Shown here: positions 7,246-32,718 of the stretch, one piece after another
Layout: every line of letters starts with the position of its first letter
Numbering within the stretch: the stretch's first letter is position 1
NCBI GenBank assembly: GCA_011049175.1
Contig: DSCJ01000095.1
Span: 1 to 32,812 of the forward strand
Length of the DNA stretch: 32,812 nucleotides
Direction of reading: 5' to 3'
Source of the DNA: Bacteroidota bacterium
Lineage (GTDB): Bacteria > Bacteroidota > Bacteroidia > Bacteroidales > VadinHA17
Program-made: the position numbers and the translations under genes
Notes under the pieces: generated by a model
Database searches by the model: none
What the model was told of the DNA's origin: nothing
Seen by the model: the letters and a program-made list of their open reading frames with translations, nothing else

Positions 7246-8231
7246 GAAACGGGTCTTATTCCATCCGGAATAATAATAAATTCATCGGTACTATTTACAG
7301 GGGTACGTATTCTGAAATTCTGATTTTGCTTGGATAACATAAAGTGAAAATATAAGAGATCTATCTTCATTCCCGTATTTTCAGAAAACAGATTGCCCTT
7401 TTCCCATTTGATTTTCCAGCTGGTAATTCCCTGTTTTTTGTACATGTTATCACACTCAAAACGGGTTTTATGGCTGATCATGATGTTTTTCTTTATGTAT
7501 TGCTGTTTTAGAATTGTATTAAAGTCGCGGGGGACTGTTTTACGGTTTGTCATGAAGGGATTAATCAGTTGTTTTTTAATTATTCTCAGAGGAAAGATCC
7601 ATTTTGACCGGGTTATTCTGTAAAGTTTTTGATCCCATTGTTGAATTTTTGTTTTATCCTTTTCAAAATTTTTTGATGATGTTCTGACAGGGAATTTCAG
7701 CAGTTGTTCATCAAAACCCAGGTAATCCGGGTGGGCAAAAGCCTGTCTGTATCTTCCTCCCAGTGTGAAAAGGCGGTTTATCTCCGGGGTGTTCCTGAGA
7801 AGACAAAGATGTGCCGGGATAAAGCCTGAATGAGTTGAAATCACATCGGCTGCAGCCAATTCAGAGGAAGAGAGCAGACGGCGGAAATTGCCATATACCA
7901 GGTCCATGTCACCATATCCCCAGAAAGTATATTCCTGAAGATATTCTGAAAAAATATATCCGCAGGCCGGCTTCAGATCGCATAATTTATAAGGATGATT
8001 CAAACGGATCCGGCATTTCAGTTTTTTTTCCGCCATTTCAACCCATTCCGATATTTTCATTGGGATGTACCTTACATTATCGGGTATGTTTGCCGGTACC
8101 GTTTGATCTGAAAGGAGAATCCAATTGACCGAAGGATTCGCCCGGCAGGACAAAAGAAAATATTCTGTCCAGGGAGGCCAGGGGCCGAACCAGGTGATGA
8201 CAATTCCGATGGAGGGGAAGATGTCAGGCAT
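7242..8231 (-). CDS. Putative DxD glycosyltransferase (DUF6625-like), paralogue 2
   Basis: A 329-residue paralogue of its two neighbours. Shared blocks are GIVITWFGPWPPW (residues 9-21), ILLSDQT, LNHPYKLCDLKPACGYIF, YTFWGYGDMDLVYGN with the DxD-like GDMD at 107-110, LCLLRNTPEINRLF, YLGFDEQ and, near the end, SWKIKWEKGNLF. Compared with paralogue 1 it has a longer, very basic middle region (about residues 205-265, rich in Lys and Arg, with TRSKWIFPLRIIKKQL). This could be a membrane-surface or acceptor-binding insert. It overlaps the genes on both sides (4 and 8 bases), so the three are almost certainly one transcript. The acceptor, donor and linkage are unknown; the three paralogues may add different sugars. 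Confidence 0.75.
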   Translation of the reverse strand: MPDIFPSIGIVITWFGPWPPWTEYFLLSCRANPSVNWILLSDQTVPANIPDNVRYIPMKISEWVEMAEKKLKCRIRLNHPYKLCDLKPACGYIFSEYLQEYTFWGYGDMDLVYGNFRRLLSSSELAAADVISTHSGFIPAHLCLLRNTPEINRLFTLGGRYRQAFAHPDYLGFDEQLLKFPVRTSSKNFEKDKTKIQQWDQKLYRITRSKWIFPLRIIKKQLINPFMTNRKTVPRDFNTILKQQYIKKNIMISHKTRFECDNMYKKQGITSWKIKWEKGNLFSENTGMKIDLLYFHFMLSKQNQNFRIRTPVNSTDEFIIIPDGIRPVS

Positions 8232-9318
8232 GAAATCCTTTGTTTGTCAGGGTGAAACGATTCAGGTTATGACAGTTCGGAAGGGGAATTTCCCTCAACT
8301 TCGCTTTTGTTTGTCTGAAATGAAAGGCCAGCATTTCCTTCCCTGTTATTTTTTCCATCAGGCGGCTTTGATCCCATACCATTTCCCATATTTTTAATCC
8401 TGTCCGTTCGAAATATATGTCGGAAGCCAGGAGGCTGGTAAATAACACGGTATTTTTTTGGGATTTTTCCATAACATGAGCGATATCTGTCATATCATAC
8501 AACCTGTGTTTTCCTGCCTGCCTTTTTTTTATTCTCCAGTGATACTGGTGCAATATTTCTTTTTTTGCCGGCAGAAAATATGTATCTGATGCGATGATTT
8601 CCGGAATATGGAAGGGGAAAAGAAGAATATCGGCCAGAGTTTTTCCGGCAGGATGCCCCCTCAGATTTTCATCAAAACCCTGGCAGGAAGGATTTTTGAT
8701 GATACTTTCCCATGCCGGCACACGTGTGAAGAGCCTTTTAATACCGGGTGTATTCCTGTAAAATGCCAAAGGGCCGGATAAATAGCCCGAATAGGTACTT
8801 ATGATCTGGTACTGGTCAAACCATTCGGGTTTCAGAAAATGGTCCATTCTTCCAAAAATGATGTCGTTATCGCAATAACCCCACCATGAAAAGGATTGGA
8901 GGTGCTCTTCAAACAAGAGACCGAACAATGGTTTCAGGTCGCATACCTTATAGGGGTTAGACAGGCTGACTGCAATTCCTGTTTTTTTGTGGATTAAGGT
9001 TTCCAGTTCCTTCCTGGTCAGCACCTTTGTACTGATATTTTCACTAAAGGTGGAAGTAACAGGTTGTTCAGTGAAAATCAGCCAGTGGTATTGAGGGTTT
9101 GCGGCAGCTGTAAGCAGAAATAGTTGAAACCATACAGGCAACGGCCCCAGGTGGACATGTATCAAACAGGGTTTTTTTTTCAATTTAATGATGTTATTGC
9201 ATGAAAAGCTTTGATGTTTAAATAATTTTGTAAATTTGGGTACTACAGAATACATACAAATGGATGTATACACATTTTCAAAAAAGGTACTCACCTTTAT
9301 TTTTCCCCATTTTGACAT
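8224..9318 (-). CDS. Putative DxD glycosyltransferase (DUF6625-like), paralogue 3
   Basis: The first gene of the three-paralogue operon and the most divergent copy. It has CLIHVHLGPLPVW where the others have the FGPWPPW block, then NPYKVCDLKPLFG, SWWGYCDNDIIFG (DxD-like at residues 150-152), LAFYRNTPGIKRLF and CQGFDENL. The conserved core starts only at about residue 49, so the first 48 residues from ATG 9318 have no counterpart in the paralogues. Alternative starts are ATG 9255 (residue 22) or TTG 9183. A -7-like element on this strand at 9321-9328 would place transcription initiation at or just after 9318, which favours an internal start. A run of nine A encodes Lys-Lys-Lys at residues 47-49. 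Function is inferred from family and context. Confidence 0.7.
   Translation of the reverse strand: MSKWGKIKVSTFFENVYTSICMYSVVPKFTKLFKHQSFSCNNIIKLKKKPCLIHVHLGPLPVWFQLFLLTAAANPQYHWLIFTEQPVTSTFSENISTKVLTRKELETLIHKKTGIAVSLSNPYKVCDLKPLFGLLFEEHLQSFSWWGYCDNDIIFGRMDHFLKPEWFDQYQIISTYSGYLSGPLAFYRNTPGIKRLFTRVPAWESIIKNPSCQGFDENLRGHPAGKTLADILLFPFHIPEIIASDTYFLPAKKEILHQYHWRIKKRQAGKHRLYDMTDIAHVMEKSQKNTVLFTSLLASDIYFERTGLKIWEMVWDQSRLMEKITGKEMLAFHFRQTKAKLREIPLPNCHNLNRFTLTNKGFHA
9210..9238 (+). promoter_or_regulatory. Candidate promoter for the SprB-like adhesin operon
   Basis: TTTG at 9210-9213 is followed by two abutting exact -7 matches, TAATTTTG (9223-9230) and TAAATTTG (9231-9238). The second lies 17 bases after the TTTG, slightly short of the usual ~19. 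Transcription from here would give a leader of about 120 bases before ATG 9364. The site lies inside the possible 5' end of the divergent gene, so the two transcription units would overlap head to head. Confidence 0.35.
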
Positions 9319-28144: not shown

Positions 28145-29890
28145 TTATTGATGTTCCTTTTCCTGTTTCTTTTTGTCAATATATTTCATTCCTTCTGTAA
28201 TCCATGGGTCGGGCTTTTCATTTTTGAGGTAATGGGTGAAAAACTGATGGATTTTTTCAGTATAATCCAGCATATTCTCTTTTTTCCTGACCGAATGATT
28301 TTCCCCGGCATAAACCAGCATAATCATTGGTTTTTGCATTCTTCTCATGGTAATGTACAATTCGATTCCCTGGTGCCAGTCAACAGCCCCATCTTCATCC
28401 CCGAAAGCTACCAGAAGAGGCGTTTCGATATTCTCAGCCTGGAACAGCGGGGAATTCCGTATATATTCGTCCATTAATTCCCAGTAGGGTTTTCTGAATC
28501 TGCCCTGACTTGTTTCGAATATTTGCTGATCGGGTGTTCCGGAATTCCAATAAATGGAATTGTACATGCTGATCATGTTGGTTAGCGGGGCTCCTGCTAC
28601 TGCTGCAGAAAAAAGATCTGTCTGGGTTATGATAAAGGCTGTTTGATAGGCCCCCCAGCTATGGCCCATTAGCCCGATACTGTTTATATCTATCATTCCG
28701 GTCTCAAGAATCTTTTCAACACCGGGAAGTACGCAGTTTACAGCCGACATCCCCGGTTCGTTCACTTCGTAAACAATATCGGGTTGGAAGACGAAGTATC
28801 CCTGCTGTGAAAAATGAGTGATATTATAAAAGCTTCGCGGGGAAGGATGAATGTACTGGTGCAGCGAGTTGGAGCGTATTTCATAAATATATACCACCAT
28901 GGGATATTGTTTTCCCGGGACAAAATTGGCCGGGTAATGTAAAATTCCCTGGAGCGGTTTTCCATTCCGGCTGGTGAAGTCAATCAGTTCGGCTTTTCCC
29001 CAGGAAAAATGAGATTGTTGAGGGTTGGTTCGGGTGAGGGGTACCGTTTTCCTGAAAAGATTATCAGTAAAATATATATCTGGCGAATCTTCGTAAGATT
29101 CTGCCGTGTAAATATAAGCTCTTGTGTTTTTTGCCTTACTCAGCTGCCGGCAAAGTTTATCTTCATACAATAATTCCCGTAGTTTCCCCCCGGGTTCCAG
29201 CATACTGAATCCCGATTTTTTGGTCTTGTCTCCGAATTTGGAAAAATAAACCGGCTGATCAGGATCCATCCATTCCTCTTCCCTGTCGAGGCGTAAAATG
29301 CGGTAACGTATCTCATTTCCCTCTCCATGGGTCAGATTCAGTGCATGGCTTCCGTCGGGGCGGAAACTCCATGCATCGTATTCTGAATAAAGGATTACTT
29401 CCTGGTCGTTTTTCATCCATCCTCCTGACCCGAAGGGAGGTTTTTCAACCAGGGGTCCGTCATCTCTTGTATTCCAGAAAGGTGCAGGAATACTGCCGGT
29501 TAAATTGGTATGTTTATTTTCTGCAATATGATATGTCCACCAGTGATGATCCTTGAAATACAGCAGATACTTTCCTTCCGGCGACGACCCCGCAAAATAC
29601 TGGATCCTGAAATTTGTAAGTACCGGTGTTTTCTTTCCACTGGTAACATTGACCAGGTAAAGATCTCCATGTTCAAGTCGGAATTGCGGCTGATAGGGAG
29701 TCTTATCCCATACCATGGCATATTTTTGGTTGCCGGTGAGTGTGGCTTCGCGGGCCTTTTCATCACTCAAACGAACGGTATTACCGGTTTCCGGATGCCA
29801 TGCGCACAGGTACGAAAAATTTTTATCCCGGTTGTAGTTTTTTTCCTGCCGTGGTTGTATCGGATCGTCCTTCCAGTGCCAGATATCCAC
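28145..29890 (-). CDS. S9 family peptidase, C-terminal part (catalytic domain) downstream of frameshift
   Basis: The downstream half of an exported prolyl-oligopeptidase-family (S9) serine peptidase. The first open codon here is the GTG at 29890, but the frame really continues upstream into the run of ten A. The segment holds the rest of the beta-propeller (YLLYFKDHHWWTY, TRAYIYTAESYEDSPDIY) and the alpha/beta-hydrolase domain. The catalytic triad is complete: Ser411 in GLMGHSWGAYQ, Asp500 in VAFGDEDGAVDW and His532 in YAGENHS (numbered from GTG 29890). If joined to the upstream half by one extra A, the product would be about 908 residues, normal for the family. All catalytic residues are intact and no further stop or frameshift follows, which argues against long-standing decay. 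Confidence 0.85.
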   Translation of the reverse strand: MDIWHWKDDPIQPRQEKNYNRDKNFSYLCAWHPETGNTVRLSDEKAREATLTGNQKYAMVWDKTPYQPQFRLEHGDLYLVNVTSGKKTPVLTNFRIQYFAGSSPEGKYLLYFKDHHWWTYHIAENKHTNLTGSIPAPFWNTRDDGPLVEKPPFGSGGWMKNDQEVILYSEYDAWSFRPDGSHALNLTHGEGNEIRYRILRLDREEEWMDPDQPVYFSKFGDKTKKSGFSMLEPGGKLRELLYEDKLCRQLSKAKNTRAYIYTAESYEDSPDIYFTDNLFRKTVPLTRTNPQQSHFSWGKAELIDFTSRNGKPLQGILHYPANFVPGKQYPMVVYIYEIRSNSLHQYIHPSPRSFYNITHFSQQGYFVFQPDIVYEVNEPGMSAVNCVLPGVEKILETGMIDINSIGLMGHSWGAYQTAFIITQTDLFSAAVAGAPLTNMISMYNSIYWNSGTPDQQIFETSQGRFRKPYWELMDEYIRNSPLFQAENIETPLLVAFGDEDGAVDWHQGIELYITMRRMQKPMIMLVYAGENHSVRKKENMLDYTEKIHQFFTHYLKNEKPDPWITEGMKYIDKKKQEKEHQ

Positions 29891-30870
29891 ACCGGGGATT
29901 TTTTCGTTTTTTTTTTGCCCTGATTAACAGAATCTTTCTCAGCAGGCTCCCACTCGATTATCCCGAAAAAGACGGTAGAAAGGTCTTCCGACCAGCGGGG
30001 TGTAAAATGCTCACAAATTTTCATGTTCTCCGGAAAGCTTTGCATTTCCCGCTGGTCGAGCACATTCAATGATTGTGGTTTGTTCAGATCATTCAAGGTA
30101 AATAGGATATGGCTTTCATCTTTGAACAGGGTATCGGTAAATGATTTCAGAAAGACAAGGGACGAGCCCTCCCTGTCCCATGAAAGCTGACGGTAGTTTA
30201 CTGTATCACTGTCCAGGATATGGATACGATAGTTGTCAAGGAGGATCAGATGGGCCCCGTTGCCTCTGTGTCCTTCGGTGTTCATTAAACAGGCAAGGTG
30301 TGTTCCGGGTTTGTTGAATGACCATTCCGACACGTTTCCAAGGGTCAGATGCGTTCCCTGCTCAAGATTCCTGATGATCAGGTCTTTCCTTCCATCCTTT
30401 CCCGCATAGGTTTCCATGGCCAGATGAATGGAATTCCTGGCAAAGGTAAATGACTGAATATCTTTTATTGTTTTTTTCTCACCGTCAGCAAGACAGATCA
30501 CTACCAGTTTATTTCTGATTTCCTCCTTTTTCTCCTGCATTTTTTCTCTTTCTGCTTCGGAATATCCCATCAGGCAGGCGGCCCATTTTGAATCTTCCGT
30601 GAAGGCAAGCCGGTTTCCGTGAGGTATTTCATATGTCTTATCACCCTGAGTTTGTTTGATGAAAAGTGTATCCGTGCCACAGACATAATCCAGGGAATAG
30701 GCAATCCATTTCCCGTCCGGCGATATGCTGGTTTGTCCCAGTGAATGCCAGGAATCGTAATCTTCAACCGACAAACAGGGCTTACTTTCCTGGGATAGTA
30801 CCAGTGAGCCTGGAAGAAGAATAAAAATGAAGATGTACAAACGTAGCGGTAATAAGTGGATTTTATTCAT
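29767..30870 (-). CDS. S9 family peptidase, N-terminal part (signal peptide and propeller) upstream of frameshift
   Basis: The upstream half of the same S9 peptidase, 367 codons. The signal peptide covers about residues 8-26 (LYIFIFILLPGSLVLSQ). Propeller-type repeats follow, including SISPDGKWIAYSLDYV, LAFTEDSKWAACLMGYS and LSWDREGSSLVFLKS. The true sequence ends at about residue 318-321 (DSVNQGKKK). The following ~46 codons, beginning TKKSPVWISG, are in the wrong frame. The correct continuation, NEKIPGVDIWHWKDDP, is found one base back in the other frame. The gene is separated by 106 bases from the lipoprotein gene upstream. A TACTTTTA at 30902-30909 is one base off the -7 consensus. As read, the product would lack a catalytic domain. 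Confidence 0.82.
   Translation of the reverse strand: MNKIHLLPLRLYIFIFILLPGSLVLSQESKPCLSVEDYDSWHSLGQTSISPDGKWIAYSLDYVCGTDTLFIKQTQGDKTYEIPHGNRLAFTEDSKWAACLMGYSEAEREKMQEKKEEIRNKLVVICLADGEKKTIKDIQSFTFARNSIHLAMETYAGKDGRKDLIIRNLEQGTHLTLGNVSEWSFNKPGTHLACLMNTEGHRGNGAHLILLDNYRIHILDSDTVNYRQLSWDREGSSLVFLKSFTDTLFKDESHILFTLNDLNKPQSLNVLDQREMQSFPENMKICEHFTPRWSEDLSTVFFGIIEWEPAEKDSVNQGKKKTKKSPVWISGTGRTIRYNHGRKKTTTGIKIFRTCAHGIRKPVIPFV
29895..29916 (-). other. -1 frameshift site at a run of ten A in the S9 peptidase gene
   Basis: On the - strand the codons read GGC AAA AAA AAA ACG, with ten A at 29916-29907. Reading one base back gives AAA AAA AAA AAC GAA and enters the frame of the catalytic half. A possible hairpin (CCGGTG 29895-29890 with CACTGG 29878-29873, one G-U pair) starts ten bases after the slip point. 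The cause may be a sequencing error, a mutation, transcript slippage or ribosomal frameshifting; the sequence alone does not decide. Confidence 0.8.
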
Positions 30871-30976: not shown

Positions 30977-31600
30977 TTATTCAATATCAAGACGATAGAT
31001 CTTAATATAATCTACCAGCGCTGTGATATTACGTCCTATCCGGAGGTATAAATATTCATTGTAATTTGCCAGAGGTTGCACCCATATTAAGTTATCATTC
31101 ACATAAAACAGCAAAGATTTGTAAATTATCCTGACGGTCAGCTTATTGAACTCGTCATAACCATTTAAAACAGATTGTCCCGACATGGTATTTGTTGTGC
31201 CTATTTTGATTTCCTGAAAAGAGATGCCCAGATGAAAAACCGACTGAAGGGAGAACTGGAAAAATTGATTATCCGGGTTTTCAGTCAGTTTAACCAGTGC
31301 TTCGAATTCAAGCAAAGACCCCTTCGCCTCAGGTATAAATTTTCTGACTTCAAAATAAGCCCGGTTGAAATTGGTCAGTCTGTAAAAGCCGTTTTCAATC
31401 TGGCTGAGTCCGCTAGTTACAGAGTCTTCAGGCCAGTTTCCTGAATGGTCTGTAAAGTGTTCCGCATATATTTCATTTTTTTGTTCCGGTTTTAGCGATT
31501 CATATTCCCTGTACCTGGCCAGGTCATAATTGATTTTCTCCGTGCAGGAGGCAAGCAGGGAGAATGCGATGATTCCGATAAGTCTAAATTTCATTGGCAT
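30977..31600 (-). CDS. Lipoprotein of unknown function
   Basis: A 207-residue lipoprotein with N-terminus MPMKFRLIGIIAFSLLASC and Cys19 in a good lipobox; a second ATG two codons later could also serve as start. The mature part begins with a short helical, charged stretch (NYDLARYREYESLKPEQK). It continues as a beta-rich domain with regular aromatic strands (ENGFYRLTNFNRAYFEVRKF, NQFFQFSLQSVFHLGIS, KLTVRIIYKSLLFYVNDNL, EYLYLRIGRNI). The pattern resembles a concanavalin-like jelly roll, but that is only a fold guess and I see no catalytic motif. It follows the truncated barrel gene by 17 bases, so the two were probably one operon. A surface or periplasmic role with that barrel is possible. Confidence 0.72.
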   Translation of the reverse strand: MPMKFRLIGIIAFSLLASCTEKINYDLARYREYESLKPEQKNEIYAEHFTDHSGNWPEDSVTSGLSQIENGFYRLTNFNRAYFEVRKFIPEAKGSLLEFEALVKLTENPDNQFFQFSLQSVFHLGISFQEIKIGTTNTMSGQSVLNGYDEFNKLTVRIIYKSLLFYVNDNLIWVQPLANYNEYLYLRIGRNITALVDYIKIYRLDIE

Positions 31601-31617
31601 TAAATTTTAATGTAATC

Positions 31618-32718
31618 TTAACGAAAGGTAATCCCGGTATGGAATTCTATCCCCTGTGTCAGCATATAATGTCTTAAAGGAGGCATAACGAAAGCCCGGT
31701 TGAAAACTCCTTCAAAAAATGCGGTCAATTTATCTGACAGAACGATTGATATTCCTGCTCCTCCGCATATTCCGTAACTCTTGTCGGGAATATTTTCCGG
31801 TTCAAGGAAATCTAAATTTAAGACATAATCAGGTTCTATATACCTTCTCTCCTGCATTCCGGTTTGAATCCCGAAAATTTTTCCGGCATAAGGTCCGGCA
31901 AACAGATAAGGACGGAATTTTCTTTGCTGAAAAGGGGTGTATATTATATTCGCATTTAATGAGATCATGGAGAATTCAATTTCATAAATATTAAACACAT
32001 AGGAGGTTTTGCGAAGATTCTGGTAATTGGTAGTTGACAAATCATTGTAATTCAGGAAATTAATATTGAAAGCGCCCGAAATTTGATGTATGGGAGTCTG
32101 CCACGTTATTCTGCCACCAGCTTTATAGGAAAAAGAGCGGAAAGGATAATCTTCCTGAAGGTCGGGGAAGTTTTTATAAGTTAATAAATGGTAAAAATGC
32201 CCACCAACCATAAAGGAAAAGCATACGGGATTCTTTTGCATATTTTCCAGGGTATAATCCTGATACTCACACATCATGCATTGATGGTATTTTTTGATAA
32301 AGCTGATTAACAATTTTCTGGGCAGGTTTTTTGTATTTTCCAGAGAAGATTTGAGAGAAGGGCAGTCATTGAAAAGAATGCGTAAGGTACCAATGGATGA
32401 TCTGAATTGCCCGATGTTGTCTCTGTGAACGTATTGTACCGAATGAATTCTGAAAGCATTTTCTTTATTCGCAATAACAAAAATTTCTGCAGATTGTTGA
32501 TCATAATAGCGGTACAGGTCGATCTTGCCATCGATCAGCAATTCCAGGAAGAGATTTTTTTCAGTCTCCTCATCCTGGAATGTTCGGCTTATATATTTTT
32601 TCCCCTGATCATAACCGTAACCCAGGATATCTTGAGGTTTGTATTGTAATTTATTTCCTGTTGACTCATCGAAAAGTACGCATAAAACCGTGAAATAGCC
32701 CCTTAGCACTTCGGACAT
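31618..32718 (-). CDS. Outer-membrane beta-barrel-like protein, apparently truncated at the N-terminus
   Basis: A 366-residue protein. The N-terminal ~100 residues (NKLQYKPQDILGYGYDQGKKY, LFLELLIDGKIDLYRYYDQ) look like the interior of a domain common in exported Bacteroidota proteins, where it normally follows a signal peptide and a GD-T-containing strand. From about residue 165 the sequence becomes alternating barrel strands (CFSFMVGGHFYHLLTY, FSYKAGGRITWQT, FRPYLFAGPYAGKIFG, YGICGGAGISIVLSDKLTAF) ending HTGITFR with a terminal aromatic/Arg pattern typical of outer-membrane barrels. There is no signal peptide, and an in-frame TGA lies three codons upstream of ATG 32718. The apparent transposase gene begins 38 bases away on the other strand. 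I infer that an insertion removed the 5' end; if so this is a pseudogene. A cytoplasmic intact protein is unlikely. Confidence 0.65.
   Translation of the reverse strand: MSEVLRGYFTVLCVLFDESTGNKLQYKPQDILGYGYDQGKKYISRTFQDEETEKNLFLELLIDGKIDLYRYYDQQSAEIFVIANKENAFRIHSVQYVHRDNIGQFRSSIGTLRILFNDCPSLKSSLENTKNLPRKLLISFIKKYHQCMMCEYQDYTLENMQKNPVCFSFMVGGHFYHLLTYKNFPDLQEDYPFRSFSYKAGGRITWQTPIHQISGAFNINFLNYNDLSTTNYQNLRKTSYVFNIYEIEFSMISLNANIIYTPFQQRKFRPYLFAGPYAGKIFGIQTGMQERRYIEPDYVLNLDFLEPENIPDKSYGICGGAGISIVLSDKLTAFFEGVFNRAFVMPPLRHYMLTQGIEFHTGITFR

Follow-up and report, generated by a model that had tools for sequence, protein, structure and literature searches.

We analyzed a 32,812-nucleotide stretch of DNA (contig DSCJ01000095.1 of assembly GCA_011049175.1, hereafter the window) from a Bacteroidota bacterium of the VadinHA17 lineage. 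We identified a gene for an S9 peptidase on the minus strand (28145-30870), the coding sequence of which is divided between two overlapping frames. The upstream frame (29767..30870) starts with an ATG at 30870 and comprises 318 genuine codons up to a run of ten consecutive A on the coding strand (29907..29916, located by a run pattern search). Through the run it encodes three Lys, which are followed by 46 wrong-frame residues before a stop codon at 29767-29769. The downstream frame (28145..29905) stays open from 29905 to 28148 (586 residues), ends with a stop codon at 28145-28147, and covers the catalytic domain as well as what remains of the strand-rich (propeller) region. An earlier note on this DNA had described two halves on overlapping minus-strand frames that switch exactly at the ten A, a wrong-frame tail of about 46 codons and a restored protein of about 908 residues, all of which we recovered. 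The restored frame has 908 residues, as does a 93%-identical homologue (L038) read from its own ATG. The whole gene was read and is otherwise open, with no further stop or frame change beyond the A10, consistent with the single clean lesion at a homopolymer that had been proposed.

The Pfam match to Peptidase_S9 (PF00326, E 6e-25) is confined to the downstream half. The upstream part matches the S9 N-terminal propeller family (PF02897) at 22.4 bits, just below the cut-off of 24. Codons for Ser (28658..28660, in the motif GHSWG), Asp (28391..28393) and His (28295..28297) are intact downstream of the break, as the earlier note had it, and occupy invariant columns across 19 aligned homologues; we take these residues to be the S9 catalytic triad. 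The Peptidase_S9 domain with Ser, Asp and His places the protein in the S9 (prolyl oligopeptidase) family. Structure matches include PDB entries 8wt1, 7ep9, 2ecf and 7px8, and the protein is DPP4-like, with an apparent signal peptide. It shares its catalytic domain family and triad with S9 peptidases such as bacterial DPP4 and acylaminoacyl peptidase, but here the gene is split over two frames. In the structure model, residues 314-348 have pLDDT below 50 and the break falls at about residues 318-324, which places it in a variable, Lys-rich loop that is predicted to be disordered. The strand-rich part of the model extends to about residue 603, whereas only 318 of the 908 residues precede the break, making the suggested propeller-only secreted product doubtful.

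The break is private to this genome among the homologues that we read. All 16 other orthologues in the family at E <= 1e-150 are uninterrupted, being open for 906-1011 codons (weaker fragments fall outside this count), and no run of at least eight A occurs at the break position in any of 21 homologous loci. These loci were read from 65 found, and are those that cover the site at an identity of 51% or more, together with L060 and L100 (these two, at least, are on the same contigs as L002 and L006). L038 lacks the A-run, having G in place of the window's A at two places, and has one base more here than the window. Open frames without a run are the pattern that the earlier note had tied to a private change. 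Neither run nor break is conserved, and therefore this is not conserved programming at the S9 gene; the tuned expression proposed earlier is not supported.

The downstream half shows constraint. In comparison with L038, dN/dS is 0.223 upstream and 0.110 downstream of the break, and amino acid changes in the downstream half number 14 on the window side and 13 on that of L038, with 16 unresolved. We rejected an old decay of the catalytic half on these grounds. With its single lesion and the low downstream dN/dS, the gene does not have the features of a pseudogene, and these values are compatible with a recent loss. A relative (G022) has only a short S9 fragment, a 98-codon open frame that is 67% identical over residues 499-584, and the gene may have been lost elsewhere in the family too.

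A hairpin downstream of the run had been noted (CCGGTG/CACTGG). It exists, but is longer (with a TCC/GGA extension) and begins 8 nt past the run (29868..29898, minus strand). Folded within a 40-nt stretch it reaches -12.1 kcal/mol, with z about -1.9 to -2.0, and no other among the 21 sequences compared is as stable; as a 66-nt stretch the region has z -0.24. Homologues without the run fold at -4.2 to -11.5 kcal/mol (e.g., -11.5 for L047, -11.3 for L041 and -10.1 for L048), and 17 of 538 windows of the S9 gene fold equally well. Near-equal folds in homologues without the run indicate that much of the hairpin stems from the conserved protein sequence that is encoded. We conclude that it is probably a by-product of conserved codons, and consider a role as a specific stimulator less likely.

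Runs of ten or more A or T are few in the host genome, which is 3.24 Mb in 139 contigs. We identified 16 (18 pattern matches, as two runs are 11 long), and a codon-usage scan placed three inside genes: the S9 peptidase, coaBC and a methyltransferase. A fourth is located just behind an ATG. We also considered 82 A9 runs. The A9/T9 runs placed inside genes are all in frame, and comprise 15 (one at the 3' end of its gene) and a further run at window positions 9172-9180, judged from the list of ORFs and not from the scripted scan, which is inside an uninterrupted ORF (8224-9318). One A9 run had been flagged as a possible further broken gene, L430, and was dismissed as the end of a UvrB-like frame followed by another gene, the assignment being a reading of the sequence and not a family search.

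The gene for CoaBC is usually essential. The host genome contains one match to the CoaB family (PF04127), and the need for CoaBC in this organism is extrapolated from other bacteria. The coaBC frame of this genome is broken at an A10 that requires the same shift as the S9 gene, and another species of the genus (G001) has the same run in the same frame. A run of at least ten A (A10-A13) is present in the linker between CoaC and CoaB in 77 of the 92 genomes of the family that were read, from 101 with a CoaB match (L271, which lacked an anchor, and eight others were left out). The run is in frame in 35 and out of frame in 42. Such runs are concentrated in the linker, with 106 in 18,866 nt, against no A or T run of at least ten in 224,653 nt of flanking coaBC sequence. 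In other families of the order the run occurs in 29 of the 94 genomes read, a set that is enriched for broken frames because genomes with short frames were included. There are 138 matching genomes at the level of the order, 15 of which have a CoaB frame of fewer than 300 codons (the host genome and G007 among them), and the 94 include all short-frame genomes of these families except L336 and L342, which lacked an anchor. Outside the order, 31 genomes were read out of 141 with a match, namely those with the 30 best scores and G338, and none of the 31 has a linker run of at least ten A. L143 was left out as a duplicate, and stop counts ahead of CoaB were not used for one query with about 33 wrong-frame residues there, whose search was the sole source of a few of the 94 genomes.

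Among relatives the coaBC run occurs in each of the three frames, and the broken frames of the family need shifts in either direction (28 and 14). On a quick tree of coaBC, in which 30 of 89 inner branches are weakly supported, there are at least 21 changes of frame state and at least 4 in the presence of the run. For 41 of the 48 out-of-frame loci with a run, a search for ATG, GTG and TTG identified no start in the CoaB frame between the last stop and the CoaB motif. One or two candidate starts are present in the other seven, and those of the host genome and G001 lie only more than 230 nt upstream. Two attributes of a programmed transcriptional slippage site are present in coaBC, a conserved run and a CoaB that mostly lacks its own start when out of frame. 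Chance assembly errors were rejected as the source of these breaks, as run and frame recur in G001 and the runs are 10 to 13 long across many assemblies. Folding of the 60 nt that follow each of 107 coaBC runs gives a mean z of about -0.5, with nine below -2. Retention of the run irrespective of frame is suggestive of RNA polymerase slippage. Conservation of the run both in and out of frame suggests, from comparison of sequences, that RNA polymerase slips on A-runs in the lineage of the host.

Slippage of this kind has been described in other bacteria. The closest model for coaBC is dnaX of Thermus thermophilus, where an A9 slippage site lets one gene give rise to a short and a long product (excerpts of PMC1088944). 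However, dnaX is nominally in frame whereas relatives retain the coaBC run in any of the three frames, and both the gene and the phylum are different; the S9 run, unlike that of coaBC, is without conservation. In tssM1 of Citrobacter rodentium, slippage at an A11 was measured at 20-25% (excerpts of PMC4256274, also for the comparison that follows). As in the S9 gene, the A-run precedes a premature stop and an altered number of bases restores the frame. Both a truncated and a full-length product arise from tssM1, both are needed and the slippage was measured, whereas the S9 slippage and its two products are predicted. Frame-broken homopolymers in undegraded genes are known from Blochmannia (excerpts of PMC3017870, here and below). 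There and in Buchnera, as in the S9 gene, a single indel is in a long A or T tract of an otherwise undegraded gene, and bypass by polymerase slippage was proposed or shown. The genomes of these endosymbionts are extremely AT-rich and have more than a hundred long A tracts within genes, in contrast to the 16 long runs and the predicted S9 bypass in the host genome. No report of a slippage site in coaBC is among the matches listed in the open-access literature, a body of work outside which subscription papers mostly lie. The term 'phosphopantothen-' is absent from the main text of PMC3711429 (without supplements), the first 300,000 of 475,107 characters of PMC5009743 and PMC1088944, and 'coaBC' is absent from the same portions of the first two.

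We lean, with modest confidence, toward the S9 break being a recent, lineage-private, one-base frame break at an A10 that is leaky through transcriptional slippage. The break would have arisen in the length-variable, Lys-rich loop. RNA polymerase would slip on the A10 to give a mixed pool of transcripts, of which a fraction would be back in frame and encode the complete enzyme, the number of Lys in a tolerant loop being slightly raised or lowered. With ten A, the run has the length of a programmed slippage site (about nine or more A or T on the coding strand), yet the run is not conserved in orthologues as such a site might be, so there is no sign that S9 expression depends on it. The earlier suggestion of truncated and full products by slippage stands in that polymerase slippage, by way of the coaBC runs, is the most plausible bypass, but not as regulation or tuning of the S9 gene. 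An ordinary recent null allele, in which the peptidase was lost without useful bypass and decay has not yet begun, is improbable in our estimation. The privacy of the break, the mere fragment in G022 and the fact that a recent loss leaves no mark in dN/dS are in its favor, and a very recent null allele would give the same dN/dS values as a leaky one. Against it, there is a single lesion, and it is at the one type of site that, as judged from coaBC, looks bypassable in this lineage. The break is probably leaky rather than null, so far as can be judged from DNA.

It is rather unlikely that the S9 run truly has 11 A, whether through an assembly or sequencing error or as a minority allele in the metagenome. 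In favor of it, homopolymers are where such errors usually arise, the assembly consists of 139 contigs and the gene is intact in the 16 other orthologues of the family. Every A9/T9 run of the assembly that was placed inside a gene is in frame, but errors could still be commoner at A10 than at A9, and errors that rise with run length would also yield the out-of-frame excess in this genome at runs of at least ten relative to A9. The repetition of the coaBC A10 in G001 with the same frame indicates that A10 calls are not generally wrong. Programmed -1 ribosomal frameshifting appears very unlikely. A slippery heptamer (A_AAA_AAA) is in phase at the S9 run, with the hairpin beyond it, but the site is not conserved in orthologues, as programmed frameshifting would require, and the fold is nearly matched in some homologues without a run, as noted above. 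Furthermore, coaBC needs both directions of shift, which fits polymerase slippage better than -1 alone, and the sequence beyond its runs has a mean z of about -0.5. Least probable, and hardly to be expected, is phase variation, in which slippage during replication would make the S9 run vary within the population between 10 and 11 A. The length of A10 tracts changes readily, and the difference from L038 is consistent with it, but the relatives that were read have no conserved run. Slippage of polymerase at these runs and production of S9 protein are both inferences.

More broadly, we cautiously favor the view that A-runs of at least ten are frame-neutral in the Bacteroidales-like family of the host by virtue of efficient slippage. 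The coaBC linker would be a slippage site conserved across dozens of species, so that one essential gene yields both CoaC by itself and CoaBC in any genomic frame. The S9 break would represent a similar site that has only just arisen and is tolerated because the cell already bypasses A10 runs. The S9 break by itself is ordinary, and led to an A-run in a gene of coenzyme A synthesis; it is difficult to account for the retention of that run by evolution while its frame drifts unless transcriptional slippage is efficient. If this is correct, frame breaks at A10 or longer runs in genomes of this family should not be called pseudogenes by default, and many coaBC genes of a whole bacterial family would come out split or truncated from standard gene callers.

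Likely true splits of coaBC were counted separately from breaks at runs. The gene is out of frame without a run in eight genomes, six with a candidate start and two (G171 and G200) without. In G225 and G338, a stop in the same frame lies between the CoaC and CoaB domains, and there is an ATG ahead of CoaB.

The source genome (3.24 Mb in 139 contigs, with the window as contig C35) encodes an S9 peptidase on the - strand that is split between two frames exactly at what is assembled as a run of ten A (29907-29916), as the earlier note had read it. The upstream frame begins with an ATG at 30870 and extends for 318 codons up to the run, after which the wrong-frame tail, put by the note at about 46 codons, proves to be 46 residues long and ends at a stop (29767-29769). 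The downstream frame (29905-28148, 586 open residues) matches PF00326. The Ser (28658-28660), Asp (28391-28393) and His (28295-28297) codons, all on the - strand, correspond to S738, D827 and H859 of the nearest homologue, L038, and are invariant in 19 aligned homologues; the triad is intact. No second lesion is visible in either frame, so the gene carries the single break that had been described. A paralogue (contig C87, 41% identical) has an open 954-codon frame.

At E <= 1e-150, we identified S9 orthologues in 17 of 117 genomes of the VadinHA17 family, and the frame is uninterrupted in all 16 besides that of the window (906-1011 codons). No orthologue was found at this threshold in G001, the other species of the genus (genome 80% complete). 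The site was read in 21 of the 65 homologous loci found; all 21 frames are open, and none has eight or more consecutive A between -90 and +30. Nine orthologues have at this site a linker rich in Lys, Glu and Asp, variable in length and encoded by mixed AAA and AAG codons. Over 7.1 kb, L038 (DRPN01000167.1, MAG HyVt-56) has 89% DNA identity to the window, and the downstream proteins are 93% identical. Its gene is in frame, and no run at the site exceeds five because L038 has G in place of two of the window's A. Conservation of the run at this codon, one of the checks proposed in the earlier note, is not borne out in the loci read. Since none of the 21 relatives' loci carries the run, we regard the break as recent and tolerated, and not as an evolved switch for the tuned expression that had been suggested. 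A 98-codon S9 fragment in genome G022 (contig C62, 535-795; 67% identical over residues 499-584), below the E-value cut-off, may reflect disruption or loss of the gene, or an artefact of the contig.

The Nei-Gojobori dN/dS between the window and L038 is 0.223 over the 317 codons before the run and 0.110 over the 586 codons after it (0.100 and 0.124 for the two halves of the latter). Polarised by eight orthologues, downstream amino-acid changes number 14 on the window lineage, 13 on that of L038 and 16 ambiguous; the upstream counts are 14, 8 and 14. These comparisons speak against long-standing decay of the gene, are compatible with very recent loss, and disfavour old decay of the catalytic half, where dN/dS is 0.110 and the two lineages changed almost equally. 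When the L038 protein is modelled with AlphaFold2 (mean pLDDT 77.1, pTM 0.75), the position of the break falls within a stretch with pLDDT below 50 (314-348), and confidence is also low around the Ser (739-745 and 767-792). Judging from the model, a Lys added or lost at this site should do no harm.

The hairpin proposed downstream of the slip is present, with its stem beginning 8 nt after the run: the 40 nt 3' of the run fold at -12.1 kcal/mol (z -1.9 to -2.0), and other stretches give z values of -0.24 (66 nt), 0.03 (60 nt) and -2.0 (90 nt). It is more stable than in all 20 homologues with the anchor motif (-4.2 to -11.5 kcal/mol; L055, without the motif, was left out), but run-less homologues come close (L047 -11.5, L041 -11.3 and L048 -10.1 kcal/mol). 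Equally stable folds occur in 17 of the 538 segments of the gene that were folded, and the stem overlaps codons of the conserved stretch DIWHWKD. We treat the hairpin as a by-product that may still contribute.

The coenzyme A gene coaBC is also broken at ten A in this genome. CoaC (PF02441) and CoaB (PF04127, the only match in the genome) are in different frames that meet at a linker run (L118/L121, contig C66, 11772-11781, - strand), and each half matches its own part of TIGR00521 coaBC_dfp, slightly under the whole-protein cut-off. G001 shares both this run and the break. We read coaBC linkers in 217 genomes (92 of the family, 94 from other families of the order Bacteroidales, a set enriched for broken frames, and 31 of 141 from elsewhere in the phylum), and 106 have a run of 10-13 A. 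Within the family, 77 linkers have ten or more A (35 in frame, 42 out) and 15 do not (12 in frame, 3 out). The corresponding numbers for other families of the order are 29 (23 in, 6 out) and 65 (59 in, 5 out, and one with a same-frame stop between the domains). None of the 31 linkers from outside the order has such a run; 30 are in frame and one has a stop between the domains. The 106 runs all fall within the linkers, which total 18,866 nt, versus no A or T run of ten or more in the 224,653 nt of coaBC sequence that flanks them.

A quick tree of the 92 family proteins requires at least 21 changes of frame state, a number that miscalled run lengths would inflate, and at least four of run presence. 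Separate initiation of CoaB finds few candidate starts: ATG, GTG or TTG is absent from the CoaB frame after the last stop in 41 of 48 out-of-frame run-bearing loci, and in the window genome the only candidates lie over 230 nt upstream. A ribosomal -1 shift by itself fails to cover both directions, as 28 of the out-of-frame run-bearing family genes need one step and 14 the opposite step. From these sequence patterns, selection seems to preserve the run irrespective of its frame. Slippage of the polymerase, by which some transcripts gain or lose bases, would explain this, and the linker run is probably a transcriptional slippage site. No earlier report of one in coaBC was found among the open-access literature matches listed. 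According to one study (PMC7794376), mycobacterial CoaBC forms a dodecamer around a CoaC core, the fused arrangement is described as required for CoaB dimerisation and function, and depletion is bactericidal in M. tuberculosis. Given that dodecamer, a mixture of CoaC and CoaBC subunits is a plausible result of slippage. At eight loci coaC and coaB seem to be separate (L196 in G116, L267 in G007, L270 in G096, L145 in G049, L332 in G251, L333 in G225, L338 in G242 and L343 in G338); all lack a linker A run and have a candidate start in the CoaB frame.

The window genome has 16 A/T runs of ten or more. A codon-usage scan places three A10 runs within genes: the broken S9 and coaBC, and an in-frame methyltransferase (PF08241; L104, contig C3, 79632-79641, + strand), where polymerase slippage would yield some truncated product. 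Of 82 A9/T9 runs, 81 were scanned; 14 are within genes and keep the frame, while another, initially taken for a break, proved to lie in frame at the 3' end of a UvrB-like gene. The last, judged from ORF reading, lies within an uninterrupted ORF (8224-9318). Close to a contig end, eleven A directly after an ATG (L109, contig C11, 131-141, + strand) throw that ATG out of frame with an HMG-CoA reductase-like frame of 444 residues (best NCBIfam match TIGR00532, 239.6 bits, below the cut-off of 259.95); the nearest other listed in-frame start is TTG, and a homologue at E <= 1e-60 was found in only 5 of the 59 other genomes searched. Including L109, three of four runs of at least ten A at genes are out of frame, whereas all 16 A9/T9 runs keep the frame (one-sided probability about 0.004, or 0.018 without L109), although these counts are low and a miscalling rate rising with run length would mimic the pattern.

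By analogy with coaBC, S9 transcripts would be mixed in length. Those with the templated ten A would give a 367-residue product ending in the wrong-frame tail, and those with one A more (or two fewer) would give the whole enzyme. The run is comparable in type to the A11 of Citrobacter tssM1, with a published slippage of 20-25% (PMC4256274), and to the A9 of Thermus dnaX, where half of the product is described as being the shorter form (PMC1088944).

Protein identity between L038 and the window is 91-93% for S9 and for the gene that follows it, whereas coaB of the MAG containing L038 (G060, also G061) is only 59% identical to that of the window genome, and G061 is assigned to a different genus. 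Therefore, the L038 contig is either misbinned or transferred. The gene directly upstream of S9 (window 30977-31600) has only 62% protein identity to its L038 counterpart, and the next gene out (31618-32718) matches well only in its last 31 residues (68%).
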